From Mytilus galloprovincialis (Eukaryota; Mollusca; Bivalvia; Mytilida; Mytilidae): 64,000 nucleotides of DNA. Under the pieces are notes generated by a model, which worked only from the letters and a program-made list of their open reading frames with translations, was not told the origin of the DNA and made no database searches. The translations under genes were made by a program, and so were the position numbers. The first letter of the stretch is position 1; the number at the start of each line of letters is the position of its first letter. This document shows positions 8,301-53,499 of this stretch, piece by piece. The stretch covers positions 58,894,793 to 58,958,792 of the forward strand of contig NC_134840.1 in assembly GCF_965363235.1 (NCBI RefSeq), in the 5' to 3' direction.

Positions 8301-11300
8301 ACATATCTACATTACTTTAATCCAATTACATGTATATTTTTTTTTCATTTCTGAAAAAAAAAACAAGATCATTAAAAAATCTTAACAAAGGTAATGTTTT
8401 GGGCGTATTAATTTGCTTAATTTTAAAAAAAAATTTTTTAATTCTCAAAAGAGAATTTACTTTTGCCTTCATACAACTGCACATGATTAAGACATTTTCG
8501 TATGATTCTCTTTGATAAAGTAATCAATATTTATCTCATTATGAATAAAAAGAAATCAGATATTTTACCATGGGAGATAACTTGGCCACAAATGAATTAA
8601 ATTCAAGGGGAGATAATTCACTTGGACATGACTGAACATCAACCAATTTAGTATAGTTTTAGTTATGTTTCCCAAAGAATGGATTCTCATATATAATATA
8701 AAATATGTAGCATTTAAATTTATAACTATGTCATTAAATAAGAACAGCAACCTTTATTTCTTCAAATAATTTTAAACATATTTTCAATTAATTCTTCCTT
8801 CCAAGAAAGTTTTAGACAACCTATTGTTCATTAATTTAAGCATCTATCTATCTTAACTCGTTTTAACCAGAATAACTGTCCATCAAACACTGTAATACAA
8901 GGCTCTTTATGTTAACCCTAGAAAAGGTACTTGAACTAAACTAAAATTTTAGATAATTTCCAATGTGTTTGATCTTTTTTCGTAGTTATTCTTCTTAATC
9001 ATTAATCATGGCCTCCTCTGAAATGACTGAATTTCTTAAAAGGGAGGAAAATCTTTTTATCTTCAATATGAAACCATTCAAGAATCAATTTCACTTTAAC
9101 ATTTACGATGGCTATGTTCTCCCAAGACTTACCTATTGCTGTAGCCAGTTTTATTTCTTTGAATGTGAAAACATCACCCTCATTAAATAAAAGAAGACAT
9201 AAGGTTTGGAATAGGGACACTTGTAGTTCCTTCTTTCCTCCCTGAAAACAATTATTAACTTGTGGTTAACTAATCATTTACACAACAATATTTTATGATA
9301 TTGGCTTCCAATATACTATTATAATTGATATATTTTTGCATTTTATTATCGAGTAGAAACAAAACAATTGTAAATCAGTGTAAGGATTAACCATGCACAG
9401 TTTTTGTTTTTGTAATTTTTCTTAAAATTTGATTAAAAGATTTACTTATAAATACATTGTAATACCTGAGGTTTGTGTGCACATAAAAACTCATTCAAAC
9501 CTAACACATTTTGTTCCTGTACCAAATCAGGCTATCCTGACCATGAGTTAGTTGTGTCTTTTATTATGTTATTTTCTGTGTTTTTTCTGTTTTTATCAGA
9601 GTCGAGTGTTCATGATTGATATGGTATGTTAGGCTATCAAGAACTTTTGGTGATGCTGGTCATCTTGTTGTTATTTTTCTTGTTTAAACCTTTTTTTCTT
9701 CTTAAAAAAATCACTTACTGGGAAGCATGCTTTGAGAACACAATGTCCCAGAGTTGACTGCCACTGAAGTTTCTTCCCACTGTGTTTACCCAAGTAAAAC
9801 TTTTTGAAAATTTCTTGGTATTTAACCATCTGTAAAAAAAATTTACAATAAATAATTCAATTTACAAATTTCTGTCAATAGTTTACTATCTATCATTGTG
9901 AGCTGTATAGTTTTCATTGTTTAAATAAAGAGGAGCAGACTTTAAGATATATTTTTGGTTATAAATATAAGTAGATGCATTACCAATGAGACATCTCTCC
10001 AACAGAGACCATGTCACTGTAAGGCTCTCAACAATGAGAAAATTCCAGTCCGCTAAATATGTTGAGAGAATGACATGGCCTTGGTTTACTAATAGTCCAG
10101 GGGTTTATCTGGGTATTTTGGGAAAAAGGACCCTGGCCAGTTTTAGGAATTTTTTAGCGCAGTTTTCAATGAAATTGGGAAAAACAACCAATATACCAGA
10201 TGTTAGTTTTAGTGTGTTTAGTTCATTAAATTTGTTTTTAAATATAACAACATGGCATTAAAGTTTATTTGAGTATCAAAATAATGAGTTCTAACTTTTT
10301 AAAGGATTGTTATTTTTTTTTATTTTGACATGAAAATTTGTGAACTAAAATATTTTGAGTTCTGTATAAAATATATCCTGTTTCTATTTTCTTTTATATA
10401 TATCTTTTACTTTTCAATTTTAGTGTTGCTATGATAGCTGTCACATGTTTGGTTCTTTTCATTTTTTATTAACTGTATTTGATTGACAAACCCCGGAATT
10501 ATATACTTGTTCGTTTCCGGATTTGATCTGGTTTTAATATTTTCCCACACTTCCTGTTTATTTATGGCAGCCATTGTTTGTCAAATGTTGTTTGTCATTC
10601 AGTATGTTTCAACTTGGATTTACACATTACTTGTTGACGATTTTTGACATAAAGCTAGCTGTTGAATAAAATAAACATCTCTGTCATGAATAATAAAAGA
10701 TGAAAATAAATTTTGTGATCATTTGGGAATTTTACTCCCAAAATTGGGAAAAATGTAGGGTTTTTGCCGTTGGGAATGGGTCCGAAAACCGGACCCTGTG
10801 GAATGCTAGAAAAATCCATGAATTCAGCAGGAAGGTATACTTCCATTGGCATATATGTAGGCCAATAGCCCATAGTTAATATATTGACAGTTAAATCTAT
10901 CATTGTCTATTCTGATACTTACTTCAGCGGGAAGATGTACTTCCATTGGCATATATGTGGGCCAATAGCCCATAGTTAATATATTGACAGTTAAATCTAT
11001 CATTGTCTATTCTGATACTTAGTTCAGCGGGAAGATGTACTTCCATTGGCATATATGTGGGCCAATAGCCTATAGTTAATATATTGACAGTTAAATCTAT
11101 CATTGTCTATTCTGATACTTACTTCAGCGGGAAGATGTACTTCCATTGGCATATATGTGGGCCAATAGCCCATAGTTAATATATTGACAGTTAAATCTAT
11201 CATTGTCTATTCTGATACTTACTTAAGCGGGAAGATGTACTTCCATTGGCATATATGTGGGCCAATAGCCCATAGTTAATATATTGACAGTTAAATCTAT

Positions 11301-14300
11301 CATTGTCTATTCTGATACTTAGTTCAGCGGGAAGATGTACTTCCATTGGCATATATGTGGGCCAATAGCCTATAGTTAATATATTGACAGTTAAATCTAT
11401 CATTGTCTATTCTGATACTTACTTCAGCGGGAAGATGTACTTCCATTGGCATATATGTGGGCCAATAGCCCATAGTTAATATATTGACAGTTAAATCTAT
11501 CCCACCAGGGGTGTCAATATGCTGCATTTGTTGTTTAAATGTCAACATAAAGTCTTTAGACAGTTCCATGTCTTTAAACATTCCTTCTAATTTACTAGTA
11601 AATGCTGCTCCACATTCTGAAAGACAATGACAATAATTGATATCAATATGGACTACCTAACTACTGTATTTTTTTCAAAAACTTATAGGAATGATAACCT
11701 AGGCCAGGTTAATAATTATTCTATCTAATGGTGCTCTATCTAGTCTAGGTACACTGCAACTGAATTATTTCTATTTAGATTTATCTATTATAGTATTATG
11801 AAAATATTTTATAAAAGAGGAAAATAAAATCATAAATATGTTCATTAAATCTGGATCTAGATAGATGGAGACTTAATATGTAAAGGTTTTTATTAAAGTA
11901 ATACTATGCAATATTATGTGTTGTTTGCATTTTTAAGTAATACTAGTATTGATTCTTTTTCTACAATAAACTGGTGAAGATATTTCATCATTGAAAGTAA
12001 GTTTACAGATAACATGGTAAAAATTTGTATCTGCATTATAAGGTTTTAATAAGAATAATCGAACAACAACTATGTAAAATGCATGCTGAAAATTATTTAA
12101 TGTTTTACCTTGTTTGAGCTTAGATAACATTGATTTCTCTGCATCTACAGAAGCACTTTTACCAACCAATAACCTCTTGGCTAAATCTTTTTTGTAGAAT
12201 GCCTCAAATACATCTTTACCTGTAAATTTAAAAATAATGGTCAAAAACATTATTCAATCATTATTTAAGGTGAAATAGTTAAATAAGAATTCACTTTTAG
12301 AGCCAGTTCGGTTCCATTTTGTCAAAATTAAGCTAAAAACATTGCTTTGGAACTTTTCACTTGCACAAAGACTGATTTTTAAACAGATAAAAACAATGAT
12401 TAACTTATGTTTTTAACCAATAGTATAACAAACAGACTAAGAAAAATCCACTTGCATGAGTTTTCTATCTATATTTATGTTGATATAGGGTTATATTACC
12501 ATTGGCAGTGTTCAGACGTCACCTCAATGGTTAATTAGATGGCATTTAGACTGAAATACACACGAATTGCTGATACATATAATCAAGCCCATGCATTGTA
12601 AATTGTTCATTTTAGACTTTTTATAATTTGAATATACGTTTTATTATGTTATATTTGAGTCAAATTGGTAACATAAATTTGACAGCTAATGAATGCCCCT
12701 CTAATCTACCTATCAAATAATAACCTACAATGTTTATCTCAACTAGAATAATTAATCAAATGATCAGACCATAAACCTGCTAGAATTTTTTTCTCTCACA
12801 AAACATGTACAAAATGTTCACTTACCATGAATAAACCTGAAAAGAACCATTATTTTGTCTAACAGTCTTTCTAGTTCTTCTTCTGTTGCTTCCTAAAGAC
12901 AAATAATTATATATTAAATTCTTAGAATGATTCATATAGTGTTCCCCTTTCAATAGATGAAATTATTTTTTTATAGAAACATACTCTGGTTAATTTTAAA
13001 CACATAAAACTATTTTTCTCTAAAAATACACAGAAATACCATTGAAAGGCAGGTTGGCACCTATTCAAAATAATGTAACTTTAAGAGAAGCATAATTTTG
13101 CTTCAGATTGTAACAATGAAGAGCCAGCAATACTTAAAATCAAGTTCAATAGAGGTGCAGTACAAATATAATTCCAGTTTCAATATATGTATTAATTTAT
13201 GATTCACATTTTTTCATGTACATTGTATTAGCCTTTAATAGCCAACTATACAGCATGAGTTTTTTTCATTGTTGAATACCGTGTGTTGGCCAATAGTTGC
13301 TTATATCAACTTCATTTGAACAAAGTTGTCTAATTGGCAATCATACCACATCTCCTTTTTAATTCAAAATGAATTCTACAAAACACCTAAATGGACTAAT
13401 TCTACAAATACCTAAATAAATTTAAACTAAATCTTTACCTTGTTTCCAGAACGTAACTTGGAATCAACATATTTTGCTGAAATAAGTAAAAAATAAGTTT
13501 CATGAATAGCTTAAAAACATAACAGCAACATGCATAATTATACAATCTTCACAAAAATAGAAAGAAATGTGTTCAATTCTTTTTATTAGCCTCCCATGAT
13601 TGATTTTTGATATGCAAAACAGACTAAAAGATCAAGATCATATATTGCTTTTGATAAATCTCCAGATAAGTGGACCTTAATGATTTGGTGTGAAGACTTT
13701 TTTAACTGGTAAACATAATTTGAAAACTAGATGTCTTCTTTTTTGGTTGCTGTTTTTTTTACTTATCTAACTGGAGATCAGAAGTTTAGATAACTATGTC
13801 TTTTTTACATTTGATTGTGTTGTTGTGTTGCTGTTTCATTAATATACCCTACATCTCCTTTGATCTTTGTATAAGAAGTATGTTTATGAAAAGTGTTATG
13901 CTTGATGAATTAAAATTTAAATCGTGATCTACTGTTGGATGTTCAGTATATTGTCATGAACTTTTTATTTGGAGAAATACTTATATTTCCATTTTTAACA
14001 AATTATCTTTACTATGATGTATATAATAATATTATCAATTCATACATTTTAGCTAATTTGATTTGTTCAGTGATAGTCGCATATTAAACTATATTTTCGA
14101 AGGTAGATAGAAAACGGTGGATAGCAAATGGGATATTTCAGTCATTTCATAATATAAATACCTATAAGTTCTGCAGGTTTGTTCTGTCGCTGGTTAATAA
14201 AATGTTCAAAGCTTTCCTTTAAACCATTGATAAATTTTTCATTTTTGGCAAAGCAAATGTCTATTACATTATCTAATTTTTCTTTAAAATCTGAAACAAA

Positions 14301-20300: not shown

Positions 20301-23300
20301 AATTCAGAGAACTCTCGCATGTTATCAAAACTTGGGAATTCCCTCTGACGTGTTTCTAAATTTATAAAAACACTAAATATAAAATACTGCTTAATTCTGA
20401 TTTTCCGTGTTGTTAAAAACACGCATACAAGTCAAGGGAAATATCGAAACATGAAGATTATGAGAAGAACATTATAGGACAGTTGTTTAAATTCAATCCT
20501 TTTGTTTTTTATACCATTTAAAGCAAGACAATCTCAAGAATCTAAGATGTTCCTTGATGTTTAGAATAAAACGATTGACGTGAGGGCATGGCTCTGAATC
20601 AATGATATAAGTCTACAGATTGCTTAAAAGCAATCGAATCCCAAAAATAAAATGTCCCTCTTGCACTATCTCTGACATTGTCATGTTTTACTGAACAGGG
20701 AAATCTGGGACAAAACTCATACATGTATGATATTTTTGTATACATGTATATCAAGCTATATGGAACATTCATATCATAATGAATATATGAAATAAATTTC
20801 AAGTTAATGTGATAATTACTTCATCGTAAACCAATTTAAATCACACTTTAATTTATCTTAAAACCCAAAACCTTAAATTTATATGGCATGAACTTATACA
20901 TGTAGAAGCGGACCTGGCAGGAAACAAACTGGATTTGTTCTGGCAATAATGGAATAGTTTTCATTAAAAAGTTTGAAATCAATGATGCAAGAAAACTGTC
21001 TCATTAGCTGTATTTATTTCCTTCACAGGCAGTATACATGTATATCATATGTATCTGAAAATTTAACTAATACCCACCATATAGACATCACTGATGAGGT
21101 CTGTAAAACATAGGTTCTGTCTAAAAACAGGAAAATACTTCTGATCATTATCTGAAACAAAAATAAGTTGGTCAAACAATATAAGTTATGAAGTCTTATC
21201 CAATTAAATGTTGACCAACTAAACAATCAAATACCTTAAATATAAATTAAAATTTAAAATTTGTATCTTTCATGATATACAATATTTTTCTGAAATTCTT
21301 ATTGTTCTAAATTATTGTCAGAGGTATTCAACTTCAAAGTTGGAATTAAAAGGGTTGTGCAACACTACCTATATAGTACACACAGACCCTCTGAAAGGAT
21401 TATTTATTGAGTATAGTTTTTTTCAACGTGTCAATCTAAGTAGATTTGTTCACAATGCAGAGGCTAATATAAACATTTAACAAAATTCCAGATAAAAGTA
21501 AAATAAATGATTTACCATTTGTCTACAGTGAGATTGCCAAATGTTATCCATCTTCTTTAGAAACTGTTCATATCCAATGTTATCTGTATCAAGTGTTAAG
21601 GAACATACATATTTAGGTTTTCATGTTATAGTAAAAAACCAGGTGCTCCGCAGGGCGCAGCTTTATACGACCGCAGAGGTCGAACCCTGAACAGTTGGGG
21701 CAAGTATGGACAAAACATTCAAGCGTGATACAGCTCTGAATTTGGATTGTGATCAAATTTTTGACATTACATGGGTTTTTTTTACACAAAACAAATGTCA
21801 AGATTTTACAAATCAATTAAAGATTTCTTCTTCAAACTTATTTAAATCTAAAATTAAATAGTTGACACAGCATAGGTTTCTGACACAGAATGAATGTGGT
21901 CTAATGAACTTAAAAGTTTTTTTTTGCCTTTGAGCAATTCACTATGCTGTTGAATATTAATCCTCTCAAAAAAATGTTTGAAGAAATTTTCTTTTTATTT
22001 ATGAAATCTGAAATGAGAAAAATTTAAACCCCCCCCCCCTTTTTTCACATCCCCGTTTCCCTTTTTCCAAAACTGATATCAATTCAAATTTCTAATGGAG
22101 TTTGCAACAATAACTACTCTTTTAAATACATCATAAAATATTAAAATGTAAAATAAAGTGCTTGTTATCACTGAATGGTAAAGATTGGTTGGTAGTAAAA
22201 GTGAATATACATTGTTTATTGTATAAAACAATAAAAAAAACTTCATCAGCAACATTTTATATTGGCAAATTTCCAATGAAGTTATTTACATAAAGTTATT
22301 GGCAAATAAAAATAGAAAATGACATCATAGTCATGTCTGGCAAATTTCCAACATACATTATCTAAAAACATTTTAGATAAGATAAGGAAAAAAAGCTTCA
22401 TCAGCAACATTTTATATTGGCAAATTTCCAATGAAGTTATTTACATAAAGTTATTGGCAAATAAAAATAGAAAATGACATCATAGTCATGTCTGGCAAAT
22501 TTCCAACATATATTATCAACTACTATTCTATACAAAGAAAGATAACTCCAATTGAAAATTAATTGCTATTGCACAATATTGTGCAATTAGATATTTCTTG
22601 CTATTGTGCAATACTGTGCAATTGAAAATTTCTTGCTATTGCACAATACTTGATATGGAATCCTGATTTGGACCAACTTGAAAACTGGGCCCATATTCAA
22701 AAATCAAAGTACATATTTAGATAAAGCATATCAAATAAGCCCAAGAATTTAATTTTTGTTAAAATCAAACTTAGTTTAATTTTGGACCCTTTGGACCTTA
22801 ATGTAGACCAATTTGAAAACTGGACCAAAAATTAAGAATCTACATACACAGTTAGATTTGGCATATCAAAGAACCCATTTATTCAATTTTTGATGAAATC
22901 AAACAATGTTTAATTTTGGACCCCCATTTGGACCAACTTGAAAACTAGGCCAATAATTAAAAATCTAAGTACATTTTTAAATTCAGCATATCAAAGAACC
23001 CCAAGGATTCAATTTTTGTTAAAATCAAACTAAGTTTAATTTTGGACCCTTTGGACCTTAATGTAGACCAATTTGAAAACGGGACCAAAAATTAAGAATC
23101 TACATACATAGTTAGATTCGGCATATCAAAGAACACCAATTATTCAATTTTTGATGAAATCACACAAAGTTCAATTTTGGACCCTTTGGGCCCCTTATTC
23201 CTAAACTGTTAGGACCAAAACTCCCAAAATCAAACCCAACCTTCCTTTTATGGTCATAAACCTTGTGTTTAAATTTCATAGATTTCTATTTACTTATACT

Positions 23301-26300
23301 AAAGTTATGGTGCAAAAACAATGCTTATTTGGGCCCCTTTTTGGCCCCTAATTCATAAACTGTTGTGACCTCAACTCCAACCAGATGCTCCACAGGGCGC
23401 AGCTTTATACGACCGCAGAGGTTGAACCCTGAACGGTTGGGGCAAGTATGGACACAACATTCAAGCTGGATTCAGCTCTAAATTTGGATTGTGATTAAAT
23501 AGTTGACACAGCATAGGTTTCTGACACAGAATGAATGTGGTCTAATGAACTTAAAAAAAAAATGTTTGCCTTTGAGCAATTCACTATGCTGTTGAATATT
23601 AATCCTCTCAAAAAAATGTTTGAAGAAATTTTCTTTTTATTTATGAAATCTGAAATGAAAAAAATTGACCCTCCAATTTTTTTTCACATCCCCCTTTCCC
23701 TTATTTCAAAACTGATCTCAATTCAAATTTCTAATGAAGTTTGCAACAATAACTACTCATTTAAATACATCATAAAATATTAAAATGTAAAAAAAGTGCT
23801 TGTTATCACTGAATGGTAAAGATTGTTTTAATCTATCAGTTGGTAGTAAAAGTGAATATACATTGTATATTGTATAAAACAATGATTTAAGTTGATTCAA
23901 CTACTATTCTGGACAAAGAAAGATAACTCCAATTGAAATCCAATTGGAATTTCTTGCTATTGCACAATATTGTGCAATTAGATATTTCTTGCTATTGTGG
24001 AATACTGTGCAATTGAAAATATTTGCTATTGCACAATACTGTGCAATTGAAGATTTCTTGCTATTGCACAATACTGTGCAATTGAAGATTTCTTGCTATT
24101 GCTGAATACTGTGCAATTGAAAATTTCTTGCTATTGCACAATACTTAATATAATAATTTTGGATCCTGATTTGGACCAACTTGAAAACTGGGCCCATAAT
24201 CAAAAATCTAAGTACATGTTTAGATTCAGCATATCACAGAGGCCCAATAATTCAATTTTTGTTAAAATCAAACTTAGTTTAATTTTGGACCCTTTGGACG
24301 TTAATGTAAACCAATTTTAAAACGGGACCAAAAATTAAGAATCTACATACACATTTAGATTTGGCATATCAAAGAACCCCAATTATTCAATTTTTGATGA
24401 AATCAAACAAAGTTTAATTTTGGACCCCGATTTGGACCAATTTGAAAACTGGGCCAATAATAAAAAATCTAAGTACATTTTTAGATTCAGCATATCAAAG
24501 AACCCCAAGAATTCAATTTTTGTTAAAATCAAACTAAGTTTAATTTTGGACCCTTTGGACCTTAATGTAGACCAATTTGAAAACGGGACCAAAAATTAAG
24601 AATCTACATACACAGTTAGATTCGGCATATCAAAGAACCCCAATTATTCAATTTTTGATAAAATCAAACAAAGTTTAAATCTGGACCCTTTGGGCCCTTT
24701 ATTCCTAAACAGTTGGGACCAAAACTCCCAAAATCAATACCAACCTTCCTTTTATGGTCATAAACCTTGTGTTTAAATTTCATAGATTTCTATTTACTTA
24801 TACTAAAGTTATGGTGCGAAAACCAAAAAAAATGCTTATTTGGGTCCCTTTTTGGCCCCTAATTCCTAAACTGTTGGGACCTAAACTCCCAAAATCAATA
24901 CCAACCTTCCTTTTGTGGTCATAAACATTGTGTTTAAATTTCATTGATTTCTATTTACTTAAACTAAAGTTATTGTGCGAAAACCAAGAATAATGCTTAT
25001 TTGGGCCCTTTTTTGGCCCCTCATTCCTAAACTGTTGGAACCAAAACTCCCAAAATCAATCCCAACCTTTCTTTTGTGGTCATAAACCTTATGTCAAAAT
25101 TTCATAGATTTCTATTTACTTAAACTAAAGTTATAGTGCGAAAACCAAGAAAATGCTTATTTGGGCCCTTTTTGGCCCCTAATTCCTAAAATGTTGGGAC
25201 TAAAACTCCCAAAATCAATCCCAACCTTCCTTTTGTGGTCATAAACCTTGTGTTAAAATTTCATAGATTTCTATTCACTTTTACTAAAGTTAGAGTGCGA
25301 AAACTAAAAGTATTCGGACGCCGACGCCGACGACGCAGACGACGACGCCAACGTGATAGCAATATACGACGAAAAATTTTTCAAATTTTGCGGTCGTATA
25401 AAAATCAATCCCAACCTTCCTTTTGTGGTCATAAACCTTGTGCTAAAATTTCATTGATTTCTATTTACTTATTCTAAAGTTATTGTGCGAAAACCAAGAA
25501 TAATGCTTATTTGGGCCCTTTTTTGGCCCTTAATTCCTAAACTGTTGGAACCAAAACCCCCAAAATCATTCCCAACCTTCCTTTTGTGGTCATTAACCTT
25601 GTGTCAAAATTTCATAGATTTCTATTCACTTAAACTAAAGTTATAGTGCGAAAACCAAGAAAATGCTTATTTGGGCCCTTTTTGGCCCCTAATTCCTAAA
25701 ATGTTGGGACCAAAACTCCCAAAATCAATCCCAACCTTCCTTTTGTGGTCATAAACCTTGTGTTAAAATTTCATTGATTTCTATTCACTTTTACTAAAGT
25801 TAGAGTGCGAAAACTAAAAGTATTCGGACGACGACGACGACGCCAACGTGATAGCAATATACGACCAAAAAATTAAAATTTTTGCGGTCGTATAAAAAAG
25901 GAACCTTAACTTTTGATTGCTTGGGATTTTTAACAAACAAATTCAGTGTTGTTAACTAAAAATTGATTAAGGAGTACAATCATGAATATGTTTTGCAAAC
26001 ACCAAGGTTACACTAACTGTTATACTTTTTTTGTACATTGTACTCTCTGCATTTATTTTGACTGAGACCAGTTCAATAGACATGATGTCATAAATGGTAA
26101 GGGTCCAAACCAGAACTTTGTTTTAAATTTTAAAACCTTTATAACATTACATAGGAGTCTGCTTTACACAATTGGTATGGATTTCAAACTTTTCATTTAA
26201 TTTTTTTGCACTTTTTCCATTCTTTTATGGCTTGCCTTAATACACACACAGATTTAAAGTAGTTCAAACAAGAAAACTTCTACTAAGGTAAAACTGAATA

Positions 26301-32815: not shown

Positions 32816-35800
32816 ATGGAGACCGATAATAGTAGTCTTGAATGGAATACCCGTAGTTTAATAGTGTCGTTATTTCAAGTTGCTTTCAGGTATGTACTGC
32901 CTTAAATTGCCGTCCGATATATGTTCACACTAATTTTATTTTTGACAAAGGTTATTATTCTAGAATGAAAGAAGTATTAAGTAATGGCTATACTAAAATC
33001 TAAGTTTTTAACACTACAGAAATGTATATTACTTCAATCAATAAAGAATATTGGACATCCATATTTTCTCATTTTGAAAAAAAAGAATGACATGTAGTGT
33101 GTCTCGCAGTCTGTATGCTCTCTTTCAGACTGTCCTCTTAATAATTTACTATTCATGTATTTCATTGAATGGGGTATAATTTTCTTTGACAGCGTTGCAT
33201 CAATTCTGAATACTCCTTGGTTTCATTTTCAGCGAAATAGAAGCTAACACTATGTCTGGTGCACAAATAGTTAATGGTATCGCGACTGAAATTCCATTAA
33301 ATAACAGAAAAGAAGAAATAACAGACAGCGACGAATGCGCTGCTTTTTACAAATCCGTCAGAGATGCTGAATACAATAGACTTGTTGACGCATATGCCAG
33401 AGAAAAGATGATCCAAGAAGAAAAGGAGAGCAATATGATAACAAGAGAACAAGAAAAGATAATTTCAACCAAAGAAATGACAGACGACGATGAATGCGCT
33501 GCTTTTTACAAATCCGTCAGAGATGCTGAATACAATAAACTTCTTGAAGCATATGCCAGAGAAAATATTATCCAAGAAGAAAGAGAGAGAAATATGATAA
33601 CAAGAGAACAAGAAAAGATAAAGAAACAATTTGAAGAATTCTGGAAACCAGCCACTGACATTGATTCACTACGGCATGTTTTTCAGGAGGTATTAACACA
33701 TATAATTTTGAAATCTACATGTATGTTCCCTTCACTTGATTGTCTGAGTATTGGGTTCTATGGAACGTAGCATTTTAACTCTCTAAGTACAGCAGTGTAT
33801 ATTTTTGTGTACAAAACTATGGTATCAGTGCAATTACACTTTCGTAGAAGCAACCCTCCAATCAATCAGTAGCTCATAAAGTTTTCTATCTTTTTAATGA
33901 AAATTTGAAAATGACCTGTTTCAATATTGTGTGCGTAGATAGCAAAAGTTTAATATCGTAATTTTCATGTCTTATATTTTTTTTTTGACAGACAAGAGTC
34001 AATAAAGAGAAGTCTGGGACTTCACAACAAGAACTATATCTTAAAGAGGAACACGTAGAGAAAAGACAACAAGGACCCTTCCTTTCACCGGTGAAAGAAG
34101 AAAGAATAAACTCATTTGTGAGAGAACAGCATAACAATTATCAAAGCTTCCAAATGACAGACACGTGGAATGTACCTATCAACAGTAAGCACATATAGAA
34201 ATTAACTCATAGTACGAAAATGTGGGATTTAGAAAAAGGTCGAGTAACACAAATAAACAAATTTCGTGTCCGAAAGGAAAAGAAACCAAAACTAACAAAT
34301 CAAATATAGTAATTATTTTATATGAAAACACAAAATAAAAGATTTTTTTTTTTATATTACACTTTTATCGTTGTTTAAAAAAAACTTTCATTATACCTTC
34401 TTTCATACATTCTGATGTAAAATTACTAAGTTCCAAAGTCTGAAAACATGGCAAAAATCCTCAAAGAACTTCACCGATAGCAATAGCAGGTGCGCAATTT
34501 CAAAATCTTCCTGTGTAGTTTTAGGAATTTGGGTTAAAAACTATTGATTACTCAATACATGTACACTCTTTTATAAATCTTGCTGAACACTGAAAAATCA
34601 AACATGTATGTAATACACAAGTCGAAGAGCTGGAGAAACCAAAAAGGACATACAGTTTAGTACATGTCAAACGAAAATAACTGTAATAATGAGTTTGTCG
34701 TTAGAAGACACATTCAAGCTTATTGTTTGTGTTTCAACAGTGTGTGTATTCAATTTTCAAGTTTATAATTGAGGTTAATTTGTGCTTTGCTTTTCAGAAG
34801 AACTGGACGGATCTGAAATACGTGAAACTGTTCCAAATAAGAGGGGATATCTCCAACGGATAGCCAATAAAGTATTCAAGGTAAATAATATTGATATTTT
34901 TATTAAAACAAAAATAAGTCAAAGATAAAATGACATTTTTCAATTGATTCGCAGGTACTGATGTAACGCTGTCTATTTTTATGCCCCACCTACGATAGTA
35001 GAGGGGCATTATGTTTTCTGGTCTGTGCGTCCGTTCGTTCGTTCGTCCGTTCGTTCGTTCGTCCGTCTGTCCCGCTTCAGGTTAAAGTTTTTGGTCGAGG
35101 TAGTTTTTGATGAAGTTGAAGTCCAATCGACTTCAAACTTGGTACACATGTTCCCTATGATATGATCTTAATTTCTAATTTTAATACCAAATTAGAGCTT
35201 TTACCCCAATTTCACGGTCCACTGAACATAGAAAATGATAGTGCGAGTGGGGCATTCGTGTACTGAGGACACATTCTTGTTATAAGTCATATTTTTAAAG
35301 GAAAACGTCAAAATAAATGAACGCACATGTTTTCCCTGTTGAACCAATGGGGTTGTCTTTCAAAATAGAAAGTCCCCATTTGTATATCATGACTGACATA
35401 ATAAAGGATGTAATAACACTTAGTTCACTCTATTTTTCAGAGAAACAAGTCTTCAACAAAAGGTAACCAGCTTGTTTTAAAGGAAGAACTAAAGTTAGAT
35501 TTGTCGACATTGAATGACGAAATAGAAGATCAAGGTAATTTATATCATATCCCCCTTTTCTATCTGACGTAATTTTCATTTTATAACCTTGATGGCTTAA
35601 AATTCGGTTTATTTTACAAATGTTGGATATCAACACTATAATTGTCATTTTTTTTTACGTAAAACTTAAAAAAATTATCACTGAAATTTTAATCACAATT
35701 GACAACATATTTGTTGAATTTGGAGGTAGACTTTTTCAACAAATTGTCGACATTCCTATGGGAACGAACTGTGCGCCTCTCCTTGCCGACCTCTTCTTAT

Positions 35801-48000: not shown

Positions 48001-49936
48001 CTTTATACGACCGCAGAGGTTGAACCCTGAACGGTTGGGGCAAGTATGGACACAACATTCAAGCTGGATTCAGCTCTAAATTTGGATTGTGATTAAATAG
48101 TTGACACAGCATAGGTTTCGGACACAGAATGAATGTGGTCTATTGAACTTATAAATTTATTTTTTTTGCCTTTGAACAATTCACTATGCTGTTGAATATT
48201 AATCCTCTCAAAAAAATGTTTGAAGAAATTTTCTTTTCATTTATGAAATCTAAAATGAGAAAAATTTACCCCCCCCCCCCCAATTTTTTTCACATCCCCC
48301 TTTCCCTTTTTCCAAAACTGATCTCAATTAAAATTTCTAATGGAGTTTGCAACAATAACTACTCATTTAAATACATCATAAAATATTAAAATGTAACAAA
48401 AGGTGCTTGTTATCACTGAATGTGGTAAAGATTGTTTTAATTTATCAGTTGGTAGTAAAAGTGAATATACATTGTATATTGTATGAAACAATGATTTAAG
48501 TTGATTCAACTACTATTCTGGATAAAGAAAGATAACTCCAATCAATTGAAAATTTCTTGCTATTGCACAACATTGTGCAATTAGATATTTCTTGTTATTG
48601 TGCAATACTGTGCAATTGAAAATATTTGCTATTGCACAATACTGTGCAATTGAAGATTTCTTGCTATTGCGCAATACTGTGCAATTGAAAATTTCTTGCT
48701 ATTGCACAATACTGTGCAATTGAAGATTTCTTGCTATTGCTGAATACTGTGCAATTGAAAATTTCTTGCTATTGCACAATACTTAATATAATAATTTTGG
48801 ATCCTGATTTGAACCAACTTGAAAACTGGGCCCATAATCAAAAATCTAAGTACATGTTTAGATTCAGCATATAAAAAAAGCCCAAGAATTCAATTTTTGT
48901 TAAAATCAAACTTACTTTAATTTTGGACCCTTTGGACTTTAATGTAGACCAATTTGAAAACGGGACCAAAAATTAAGAATCTACATACACAGTTAGATTT
49001 GGCATATCAAAGAACCCCAATTATTCAATTTTTGATGAAATCAAACAAAGTTTAATTTTGGACCCCGATTTGGACCAACTTGAAAACTGGGCCAATAATA
49101 AAAAATCTAAGTACATTTTTAGATTCAGCATATCAAAGAACCCCAAGGATTCAATTTTTATTAAAATCAAACTAAGTTTAATTTTGGACCCTTATGACCT
49201 TAATGTAGACCAATTTGAAAACGGGACCAAAAATTAATAATCTAAATACACAGTTAGATTCGGCATATCAAAGAACCCCAATTATTCAATTTTTGATGAA
49301 ATCAAACAAAGTTCAATTTTGGACCCTTTGGGCCCCTTATTCCTAAACTGTTGGGACTAAAACTCCCAAAATCAATCCCAACCTTTGTGTTTAAATTTCA
49401 TAGATTTCTATTTACTTATACTAAAGTTATGGTGTGAAAACCAAGAAAAATGCTTATTTTGGCCCCTTTTTGGCCCCTAATTCCTAAACTGTTGGGACCT
49501 CATCTCCCAAAATCAATCCCAACCTTCCTTTTGTGGTCATAAACCTTGTGTTTAAATTTCATTGATTTCTATTTACTTTTACTAAAGTTATTGTGCGAAA
49601 ACCAAGAATAATGCTTATTTGGGCCCTTTTTTGGCCCCTAATTCCTAAACTGTTGGAACCAAAACTCCCAAAATCAATCCCAACCTTCCCTTTGTGGTCA
49701 TAAACCTTGTGTCAAAATTTCATAGATTTATATTTACTTAAATTAAAGTTATAGTGCGAAAACCAAGAAAATGCTTATTTGGGCCCTTTTTGGCCCCTAA
49801 TTCCTTAAATGTTGGGACCAAAACTCCCAAAATCAATCCCAACCTTCCTTTTGTGGTCATAAACCTTGTGTAAATTTCATTGATTTCTATTCACTTTTAC
49901 TAAAGTTAGAGTGCGAAAACTAAAAGTATTCGGACA

Positions 49937-49967
<31 letters not shown>

Positions 49968-52808
49968 AGACGACGGACGACGCCAACGTGATACCAATAT
50001 ACGACTAAAAAAATTTTAATTTTTGCGGTCGTATAAAAATCAGTTGAAAAAGGCTTAACCCATCAGATAAATAGAAATACATCTAACAAAAAACAGAGTA
50101 GACGTGGCCGGGTACTTGTATATTCCAACAACAAAAAGACACTAAGTACAGATCTGAGGGTACTCGCAGTTACTGACAGGTAGTCCAAAGCCACTAACAA
50201 GTCAACTATTTAAAAAGTCATGTATCTCTATACAAATGCACCAGAATAATACTTGACTCATTTTACCGATAACAACTCCCCGACATTGTGACCTCTAAAA
50301 TCAGCATTTTAACACTAACAGATTGTACCTGCAAGGCTGCTTAAAATGAGTTTCCGTCTGCCCACTTTTTCCACAAGATAAATGCCTGACAATGTAAATA
50401 TACAGCTCACGCCTGCAGTGACAGCTGTCAGCCATATTGCCATTATTTCATCTCTCACACCTGACATTTGGATTATAGTACCACTATAGTACCTGTAGAA
50501 AGACCCAAACAATTTTGAATTACAAGATTGTTTATTGAAAAGAGTGTTCTTGGTCAGCTCGCAGTGTCGAACGGTATTTCTTCTAGCAGGCACACACCGC
50601 ATTTTTTTTTTACATAACAAATGGTTGAACAAAGTTGATTCAATCTAAACTTCCAACTTGGAAATAACGATTAAATGATCAGTGTGCTTCCCTTGCAGTT
50701 GTAAGTTCAAACTTGTATTGGTCTTAATCAAAGAAATAATGGTGAAGTCTTAAAAGGGTAAATGAAAATGTTACATTAACTGAATGTTCTCGTATATCTT
50801 AAATTAAGAATGAACTAAACCGTCTATTCTAGATACCCACAAGTTGTAAATACAATAAAAATTGTAATGTACGTACTTACATAACTGTATTGATGCCACT
50901 AAGTTGTTGAATTAAAGATGTAGAAACTCCAACTATAAGTGCTCTGCGGACTGATGGTGTGAGCATGATCTTCTTCAATGTCCATTCATTTCCTTACAAA
51001 ATAACCTTTCTTTATAATTTTACATAGTATCACCTAATTGACAAAGCTTAAACCAGTATCACTTAACAAGTACAAAATTCGTCTTTAATTTATTTAAAAT
51101 ATTTGATTATTTTTTTACTCTTCTCGTCTCTTTCTGTTTTTAAAAGACATTTTAGTTAACTTCAGAGTTTTCACTAATTAAACGAAAGACACTTAAGATT
51201 TGTTTATGTTATAAAAAATTAGAAATAACCTTGAAGTTCTTTGAGTTTTATCTCTTGCTGACATATTTCTTTAATTTGTTTTATGTCGTCCGAAACATCA
51301 GATCTTCCTCGAATCCTCTGTAGAATGTGTGTCGCCATGTCTTCCTTGCCATTCCGCACTAAATAACGAGGTGTCTCGGGCAGGAATAAGAATCCTATGA
51401 ATTGTACTAATGATGGCACACCAGTTAGGCCTAGCATGTACCTAAAATACACAAAGACTACATGTTTGGAAAAGCATCATTATTTGCATTGCAATTCTCT
51501 TTTTATCAAAGATTCTGAAAAATGAATGAATTTCTATAAGATCTTTAAAAAAATATTTTTTGTAAAAAGATCTTTTATAGTTTCGATAAATAATAGTGAA
51601 TTGTAAACAAATATAATAAATTTAAGTGAGTTCATTTTACCTCCATCCAGTCTTATCATAACTAAACGCGCCATCTACAATGCTGGCTACTGTCCTTCCT
51701 ATCGCCATCATACCAGTACACAGTGTAACTAATGGTCCCCTGTACTTTACTGGTGAACATTCAGCAATATAAACTGGTGATATCATTAGTATTACTCCTA
51801 TTAATCATAAAAAAACATGTTACAATTGTCATTCATATTCATGCTTACTGATAGTCAAGTGGTGTTTTCGTTCGCAACTTGATTCGTTTAATCCGTTCGT
51901 CTGTTCGTTATTTGTAACCACAACTCCTTTTAAACAAGAGAATGACTAGCAACAAAGCTTTCGCATATTCTTTATTATAGCTTCCCATTTAAGCTTTTGA
52001 TCGTTTGTGGTCCTCTATAAATCGAATAAGATCTTTGCGAGATCTACTAACCTAATATGGAATATACACGGTCTCCACACGGTTGCTTTTAACCAATCAT
52101 ATTCCTATAAATGTATAGGAGGTAAGATAAACATCATATACGTTCTGATCTATGATTTCGAGTAAAACTTTATTTATATATATGTAGCATATTGAATTTA
52201 CTCTTGGAATGTTAGTTGTAAACACAGTCATGTATATTGCTAAGTCGCACTGAAACTTAGAATCAATACCAATTGTTGACAGTTTGAACGATAAAAATAA
52301 CTCGCAAATGATAGTCATGCCAAATAACATATCAAATAGAAGTTGAACTCCGATAGGATTAGTGACGAACAAACCACCTTCAAGCAGACTCACCAATTCC
52401 AATGCCTAGTAAACCACGTCCAAGAAGTAACATCCAGTAAGTCTTAGAAACTCCATTGAGTATTGTAGAAACTGTAAAAACAAAACTACCGATCAACATG
52501 GAAGGTCTTCTTCCAATTTTATCGCCAAGGTAGCCAGACATGAATGCTGTTATCATGGCAGTTGCTATAGTAACACTTACAAGTACTTCCTGGTCAAACG
52601 AATCTAATTCGAATTCTGTCCGTATAAAGAGTAATGCTCCTGAAACAACCCCAGTATCATATCCAAACGAAAAACCACCGAGTGCTCCAAATACTGCTAC
52701 AAAACATAAATAACATGTGAATTTAGAACTAGTATTCTTAGAGTCATATACGGTTTTACCACTATTGTTTGTAATTTTGTTACTGGAGATAGTTGAAACT
52801 TTCTCCAT
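45069..52808 (-). CDS. SLC2A13: SLC2A13-like proton/myo-inositol (polyol) cotransporter (9 exons, 578 aa)
   Basis: A major-facilitator sugar transporter. The vertebrate homologue imports myo-inositol with protons at the plasma membrane; the substrate here is inferred. Exons in gene order: 52808-52394, 51797-51641, 51441-51230, 50992-50881, 50492-50329, 47144-47036, 46760-46525, 45926-45774, 45247-45069. They total 1737 nt with consistent phases. Family motifs appear in order: GGFSFGYDTGVVSGAL in helix 1, GDKIGRRP in the first cytoplasmic loop, VYIAECSP, VDGAFSYDKTGWRYMLG, FLFLPETPRYL, QQLSGINTVMYYS, VEKVGRRKL, PLWARST and the terminal LPETKDKKLEDVESLF. Exons 6 and 7 code for a long extracellular loop with CATCIKEQNCGFCY, the PSI-like cysteine cluster that separates SLC2A13 from ordinary GLUTs. 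Human SLC2A13 has about 648 residues, the difference lying mainly at the termini. The 3.2-kb intron at 47145-50328 holds a transposon nested in an older repeat. Confidence 0.95.
47600..50215 (-). repeat. Mussel-type dispersed repeat, copy split by element E
   Basis: Left part 47600-47978 starts with GATGCGGTATGATTGCCAAT and includes ACAGAATGTGGCGGGGTTAA; right part 50036-50215 continues with CAGTTGAAAAAGGC. The interruption is transposon copy E. The repeat lies in the SLC2A13 intron between exons 5 and 6. Confidence 0.75.
47979..50035 (+). mobile_element. CCAGATGCTCC-family element, copy E, complete, nested in a dispersed repeat
   Basis: About 2.06 kb from CCAGATGCTCCGCAGGGCGC to GCGGTCGTATA, with the 35-bp array at 48545-48785 and a GAC triplet tract at 49935-49985. 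Left flank AACTATAA and right flank AAAATCAGTTG rebuild the uninterrupted sequence seen at 30996-31014 (ACTATAAAAATCAGTTGG). Lies in a SLC2A13 intron. Confidence 0.88.
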
Positions 52809-53499
52809 TTTTGATATTGAACTATGTTAAATCTATGTTTTCATGATATAGATAACTGGTTCAGCTTATCTTTCTAGATCTTCTAAGTCAGTTCATATTT
52901 CATTATCGGAAGACTAAATACATGTATGTAAAGAGTTACACGAATAAATTAATAGATCTATAGTTATTGATAATGACCCTAGACAACCTATTGTATTATA
53001 TAATTTATATCACCTAAAAGAAAAATAGTAATGAACAAATAAGGAAGAATGACTACTCGGCTGTTTCAACAGAGTAAACACCGGTCTTCCAGAAATACTT
53101 TTTTGCTACATTTTTCCCCATTAAAATCACAATACTGTTTTATTGCGTATGGATATCATTGTTCGACCATCCGTCAACATATTGAAATATCAGTGAAGCA
53201 TAATGCTCACACAAATATCTTTTTTCAGGATATATACAATCCGATTTATTTGATTAAATTGTGTCATAGGAGCATAATATACAAATAAAGGAATTCCTTA
53301 TTTTTGGGTTGTAAAAAGGTCGTTGTATGCTTTAGATATATCAATGATTAAGTGCTTCTAATAGTACTTTCTATTCTGTGTATAACAGTTTTGACCTTTC
53401 GACTATCTACACTACACTTTCACGTTATCTTATCAGACAGAAACCTTTTGTATTTAATAAAACGAGCCTTCGGAAAACCTGAATGTAAATCTATCGGCT
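52809..53499. other. Upstream region of SLC2A13
   Basis: AT-rich, no gene or repeat recognised. The transporter promoter should lie at its left end, but no specific element is evident. Confidence 0.45.

Follow-up and report, generated by a model that had tools for sequence, protein, structure and literature searches.

A tandem array of exon ends carrying splice donors in the CUL4 gene of Mytilus galloprovincialis

CUL4 is a conserved scaffold for the disposal of proteins. In the CUL4 gene of the mussel Mytilus galloprovincialis, the end of one coding exon is repeated in tandem together with the beginning of the following intron, and this conserved gene contains, behind one acceptor, a natural series of near-identical splice donors in 100-bp steps. 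The locus shows a minisatellite born from an exon-intron boundary, with a putative 7-bp breakpoint. We consider it reasonably probable, if by no means assured, that the array is a young and near-neutral minisatellite, that the true donor dominates, that the other donors are decoys whose transcripts would enter nonsense-mediated decay, and that the copy number is variable.

The CUL4 gene and the affected exon

The window, the whole stretch of 64 kb that was analysed, contains on its minus strand an intact CUL4 gene, of which 20 coding exons were located and joined by GT-AG rules. The N-terminal coding part lies outside these exons, and the first modelled junction is uncertain. Aligned without the 18 residues at this junction, the spliced peptide matches CUL4B (4a0l) from end to end with 1147 bits and with two gaps, one of eight residues at the first modelled junction and one of four residues elsewhere. 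CUL4A chains can likewise be aligned end to end with the spliced model, which comprises the Cullin and Cullin_Nedd8 (neddylation) domains. The affected exon (11423-11616, minus strand, 194 nt, ending in ..MEVHLPAE) is the 14th of the 20 located; the earlier note had named gene and exon correctly, and its number 15 for the exon is only plausible. The next exon (9719-9829, minus strand, MVKYQEIF...) follows the true exon end in phase 0. CUL4B is continuous across this 11423/9829 junction (..LPPE MVKLQEIF..), and the model spliced via 11422 has no gap there. According to this alignment, the first unit of the array (U1), which contains the final 78 exon bases (11423-11500), is the authentic exon end. 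The two introns flanking the exon have 492 and 1593 nt, and the 18 modelled internal exons of the gene range from 38 to 194 nt. Searching the genome with the 194-nt exon for a second copy or retrocopy of CUL4 gave seven matches, all at this locus. A search with 233 residues for a second copy gave 13, of which 12 are located here; the remaining one, on C3, is weak (61% over 38 residues) and may belong to another cullin.

Anatomy of the array

TRF reports the array at 10823-11501 with a period of 100, 6.8 copies, 97% matches, and a score of 1295. The unit-by-unit reading agrees, with the 78-bp exon end recurring each 100 bp from 11500 down to 10823, seven times including the true end, and the array described in the earlier note is therefore real. 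Its start had been placed at 10801, but the array begins at 10823, and the stretch 10098-10820 belongs to a dispersed transposon. Six extra units of 78 bp of exon and 22 bp of intron had also been claimed: six additional exon-end copies are indeed present, but the intron piece accompanies only five of them. In the first six units the same 22-bp piece of intron comes after the exon end (11401-11422 behind the true exon end, minus strand, with the authentic donor GAA|GTAAGT and its G at 11422), save for one base in two units.

All units lie on the minus strand. U2 (11301-11400) and U5 (11001-11100) are identical; relative to U1 they carry two changes, of which one is G to C at donor position +1, so that both have lost the donor (CTAAGT at 11322 and 11022). 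The exon copy in U2 shows a change from M to I and contains a TGA at 11326-11324. U3 (11201-11300) differs from U1 at one site; its last exon codon has changed from GAA to TAA, and its GTAAGT at 11222 is intact. U4 (11101-11200) and U6 (10901-11000) equal U1 over 100 bp and have intact donors at 11122 and 10922. U7 (10823-10900) diverges most of all exon-end copies (from U1 at 4 of 78 positions) and ends at the donor position, with no donor at 10822. GTAAGT is thus kept in four of the seven units, as had been read before, and the four sites are 11422, 11222, 11122, and 10922. The units had also been called nearly identical. This is true for U1 to U6, which differ by 0-3 bases per 100 bp at only three variant sites, but not for U7 with its 4-5 differences per 78 bp to the other units.

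With at most one mismatch allowed, the donor word GAAGTAAGTATC matches seven times in the window, six times inside the array, where 0.41 matches are expected, which excludes chance for the donor array. Among the 11 non-overlapping tandem arrays (period 30-350, at least three copies) found in 114 kb including the window, all of which lie in the window, the CUL4 array is the only one with at least three GTAAGT on one strand; a survey of this size is no estimate of the genome rate. The array is not a tandem exon duplication, because the repeated part comprises the last 78 of 194 nt and the acceptor lies outside. That it might be dispersed or a captured gene fragment was rejected: 40 of 80 candidates were scored, comprising the window's own match and 39 that reach only the transposon end (query 1 to 41-46). 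Also rejected was a gain of introns inside the array, since none of the seven units contains AGGT and the parental acceptor is outside the unit.

Other repeats and open frames are found elsewhere in the window. At 33313-33621 (plus strand) there are about two tandem copies of 159 bp, which encode an in-frame charged repeat of 53 residues inside an open frame of 186 codons and are possibly a coding tandem duplication. Similar composite repeats with tandem periods of 35, 135, and about 160 bp are located at 22549-25814 and 48543-49920, and part of them is also present near 1004-1934. An open frame at 52383-52826 (minus strand) has a sugar-transporter domain (PF00083), and further transporter-like open frames were seen by eye on the minus strand between 45 and 52 kb.

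Age and origin of the array

The blocks U1-U3 and U4-U6 differ at one of 300 bases (0.33%). Together with the identity of U1, U4, and U6 and that of U2 and U5, this indicates that the expansion is recent, and supports the earlier description of the array as recent or homogenised. The order of the variants suggests that a three-unit block of 300 bp was copied. The heterozygosity of Mytilus galloprovincialis, reported as 3.27% (PMC11183127), is about ten times the difference between the blocks. The near-identity of the blocks makes copy-number polymorphism likely, and with so young a block copy the unit number probably still varies between individuals.

The breakpoint may be recognisable in the same intron. 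A 12-mer, ACAATGATAGAT, which includes GATAGAT (9888-9894), is located near the far end of the intron (9888-9899, minus strand). It occurs seven times in the window, six times at array junctions and once in this intron, compared with 0.05 expected occurrences. When the 268-bp intron remainder is shuffled 2000 times, an equally long word is shared with the junction only twice, and the 12-mer is reached 11 times if the whole unit is allowed. A gapped alignment of the unit to the intron remainder does no better than shuffled sequence, with 278 of 2000 shuffles attaining its score. The proposed origin rests on the exact 12-mer, which was spotted after looking, and the gapped comparison adds nothing to it, so that this step is likely without being certain. 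With the same reservation, the 12-mer is likely what is left of the ancestral intron and of the 7-bp breakpoint, and the ancestral intron, read as homology, would have consisted of GTAAGTATCAGAATAG, ACAATGATAGAT, and 58 nt, about 86 nt in total. The duplication would have joined two copies of GATAGAT, that of the intron and that of the exon (11495-11501), which in the ancestor lay 100 bp from each other, and the first tandem duplication would have comprised the last 78 bp of the CUL4 exon and the first 22 bp of the then short intron. Later unequal exchange or slippage, including the recent copying of the three-unit block, could have led to seven units, and insertion of the 723-bp transposon and of a stretch containing a repeat-like piece would have removed the outermost donor and lengthened the intron. 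The order of these events is inferred. If the proposed origin is true, relatives without the array should have an intron of about 86 nt beginning with GTAAGTATCAGAATAGACAATGATAGATAGTAAAC.

The transposon (10098-10820, 723 bp) has similar inverted ends, CAGGGGTTTATC and CATGGATTTTTC, and adjoins U7, which meets it two bases past the exon end. Of 1059 candidate matches in the genome 40 were scored, and 35 of these span at least 700 bp at 85-99% identity. Eleven other full-length copies were examined by eye; nine have an exact target duplication, which measures 6 bp in one copy and 5 bp in the others, one has four of five bases duplicated, and one is without a clear duplication. A target duplication is doubtful at CUL4, because the flanks, TAGTC and AATTC, agree at three of five positions. 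Several copies are 97-99% identical to the one in CUL4, and the element has therefore probably been active recently. The 258 bp on its other side contain a piece of 50-70 bp that has eight other matches in the genome, with identities of 77-83%. Two candidates for a diverged donor continuation were rejected: the score of the one immediately past the transposon is attained by 167 of 2000 shuffles, and that of the one immediately ahead of the 12-mer by 322 of 2000.

Strength of the donors and predicted transcripts

Donors were scored with a weight matrix entered by hand. The true donor reaches 8.5 and shares sixth rank out of 19 modelled donors; those at 11222, 11122, and 10922 reach 8.0, 8.5, and 8.5, respectively. 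Only ten GT sites in the 21-kb gene span score at least 8.4, and by the listed scores seven of these are authentic donors and two are array donors. Use of the distal donors would result in exons of 394, 494, or 694 nt. For all three the first stop is the TGA at 11326-11324, after 32 foreign codons; the earlier note, right about the frame and the early stop, had described such an in-frame TGA in the first extra unit, and it was found there. As a general rule, nonsense-mediated decay follows when a premature stop is located over 55 nt upstream of a junction. The TGA would be 101, 201, or 401 nt upstream of the new junction, beyond the 55-nt criterion, and the transcripts from distal donors should therefore be degraded.

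The true donor does not stand out in the folding prediction. The predicted unpaired probability is 0.026 for the true donor, 0.086 for 11222, which is somewhat more open, and 0.014 for both 11122 and 10922, which are somewhat less so. The idea that RNA structure conceals the spare donors was rejected, because no donor is hidden relative to the region median of 0.013.

A G to A change common to U2 and U5 creates an AG (CTATAG|G) at 11369 and 11069, in the same two units that have lost the donor. In a scan for new acceptors covering U1-U2, the AG at 11369 is the best acceptor-like site with a score of 1.3, which applies to 11069 by identity. The acceptors of the affected and the next exon score 5.0 and 4.1, three modelled CUL4 acceptors score 0.9-1.2, and the uncertain first one scores -2.5. 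The new AG may be used cryptically, given that it is no weaker than the weakest modelled acceptors at 0.9-1.2.

Which donor is expected to win

According to a database and minigene study, when two donors are nearly equal, short introns favour the downstream one and long introns the upstream one (PMC9225289). In minigenes with introns of 365 nt and two identical guaagu donors, the same study reports exclusive choice of the upstream donor (PMC9225289). The intron lengths of 492 and 1593 nt suggest exon definition at the CUL4 locus, and under this rule the true donor should dominate. By extrapolation from other cells, genes, and organisms, 11422 is thus most likely the dominant donor. The spliceosome would pair the acceptor of the exon with the nearest donor, 11422, yielding normal CUL4, and the three spare donors would be weak decoys, whose occasional use would generate TGA-bearing transcripts destined for nonsense-mediated decay. 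The array itself is most likely passive. Among the three options considered earlier, a neutral minisatellite, a poison extension tuning the CUL4 level, and a length polymorphism, we favour a young, near-neutral, and probably length-polymorphic repeat; the sequence alone proves none of them, and it gives no sign that the array acts as a regulated poison extension.

Several observations do not fit easily with a passive array. The distal donors equal or nearly equal the true one (8.0, 8.5, and 8.5 against 8.5), 11222 is predicted to be more accessible than the true donor (0.086 against 0.026), and one of the three variant sites in U1-U6 destroys the donor adjoining the true one, which selection could explain. 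An alternative is that the distal donors are used appreciably, as in the IFI6 minisatellite, and that the resulting frameshifted transcripts reduce the CUL4 output, by leakage or as a regulated poison extension. All three donors, similarly strong, reach the same early TGA; two downstream repeat units of IFI6 are reported as donors (PMC4526556), which also speaks against a passive array, and splicing in human genes can change through tandem repeats at exon-intron boundaries (PMC2812944). However, with equal donors under exon definition the upstream one is preferred (PMC9225289), exons of 394, 494, and 694 nt would be needed in a gene with modelled internal exons of 38-194 nt, and little loss should be tolerable in a conserved gene that lacks a second copy. 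We regard such appreciable use as unlikely, albeit worth keeping in mind. It is distinctly less probable that the extra units, or the copy of the 300-bp block, are an assembly or haplotype artefact absent from most or all real chromosomes. The single difference in 300 bases between the blocks would agree with this, but the variants are ordered across the units, U7 is clearly diverged, and the array sits between unique CUL4 sequence and a sharp-ended transposon. It is hard to imagine that the spare donors are retained as back-ups against loss of the exon's own donor. Several consensus donors for one exon might look like redundancy, but each distal donor adds an in-frame stop, so that a back-up would not yield CUL4.

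A more speculative extension of the passive reading, to which we give a small chance, is that lengthening of the intron made growth of the donor array tolerable. At the start the array would have been beside an intron of 86 nt, where the downstream donor should win by intron definition and break CUL4. The transposon, reaching to within 2 bp of the outermost exon copy, and the repeat-like stretch would then have removed that copy's donor and extended the intron past 1 kb. Under exon definition the upstream, correct donor would win, and further growth of the array would be tolerated. If true, the locus would be a natural experiment in which intron length settles the competition between identical donors. 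Individuals differing in unit number would in any case allow a direct test of how proximity and exon length govern the choice between equal donors.

Comparison with known systems

In the open-licence literature on repeats with donors, intron gain, mussel genomes, and donor competition we found no account of this CUL4 locus, and none of the open-licence papers listed for CUL4 names Mytilus. As in poison extensions and other 5' splice-site choices coupled to nonsense-mediated decay, the distal CUL4 donors would introduce a stop whose distance to the next junction exceeds 55 nt; the difference is that for CUL4 this is predicted from the sequence alone. The closest precedent is human. Turri, Cuin and Porter reportedly described in 1995 that a minisatellite in IFI6 (6-16, G1P3) provides multiple splice donor sites. 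The IFI6 repeat unit has about 12 bp. The CUL4 array is alike in anatomy, with tandem units carrying consensus donors. The IFI6 unit is short and its donor use has been reported, whereas the CUL4 unit has 100 bp, is mostly coding and stop-bearing, and its donors have been recognised only by reading the DNA. In IFI6, two downstream repeat units are reported to act as donors, resulting in three mRNA species (PMC4526556).

Tandem repeats at human exon-intron boundaries have an average unit of about 30 bp and are found in genes of segmental duplications, some of them with novel introns (PMC2812944). They resemble the CUL4 array in that minisatellite expansion shifts the exon-intron boundaries, and their host regions are often copy-number polymorphic. 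In contrast to these cases, no second gene copy was found for CUL4, and no novel intron is evident. Tandem duplications creating introns, for which another study cites cases from fission yeast and ATP2A1 (PMC4974935), similarly involve a segment bearing splice signals. There a new intron results, whereas the CUL4 unit, without AGGT and without an acceptor of its own, multiplies donors only. Overall, the locus offers less as a new mechanism than as a natural experiment on splicing.
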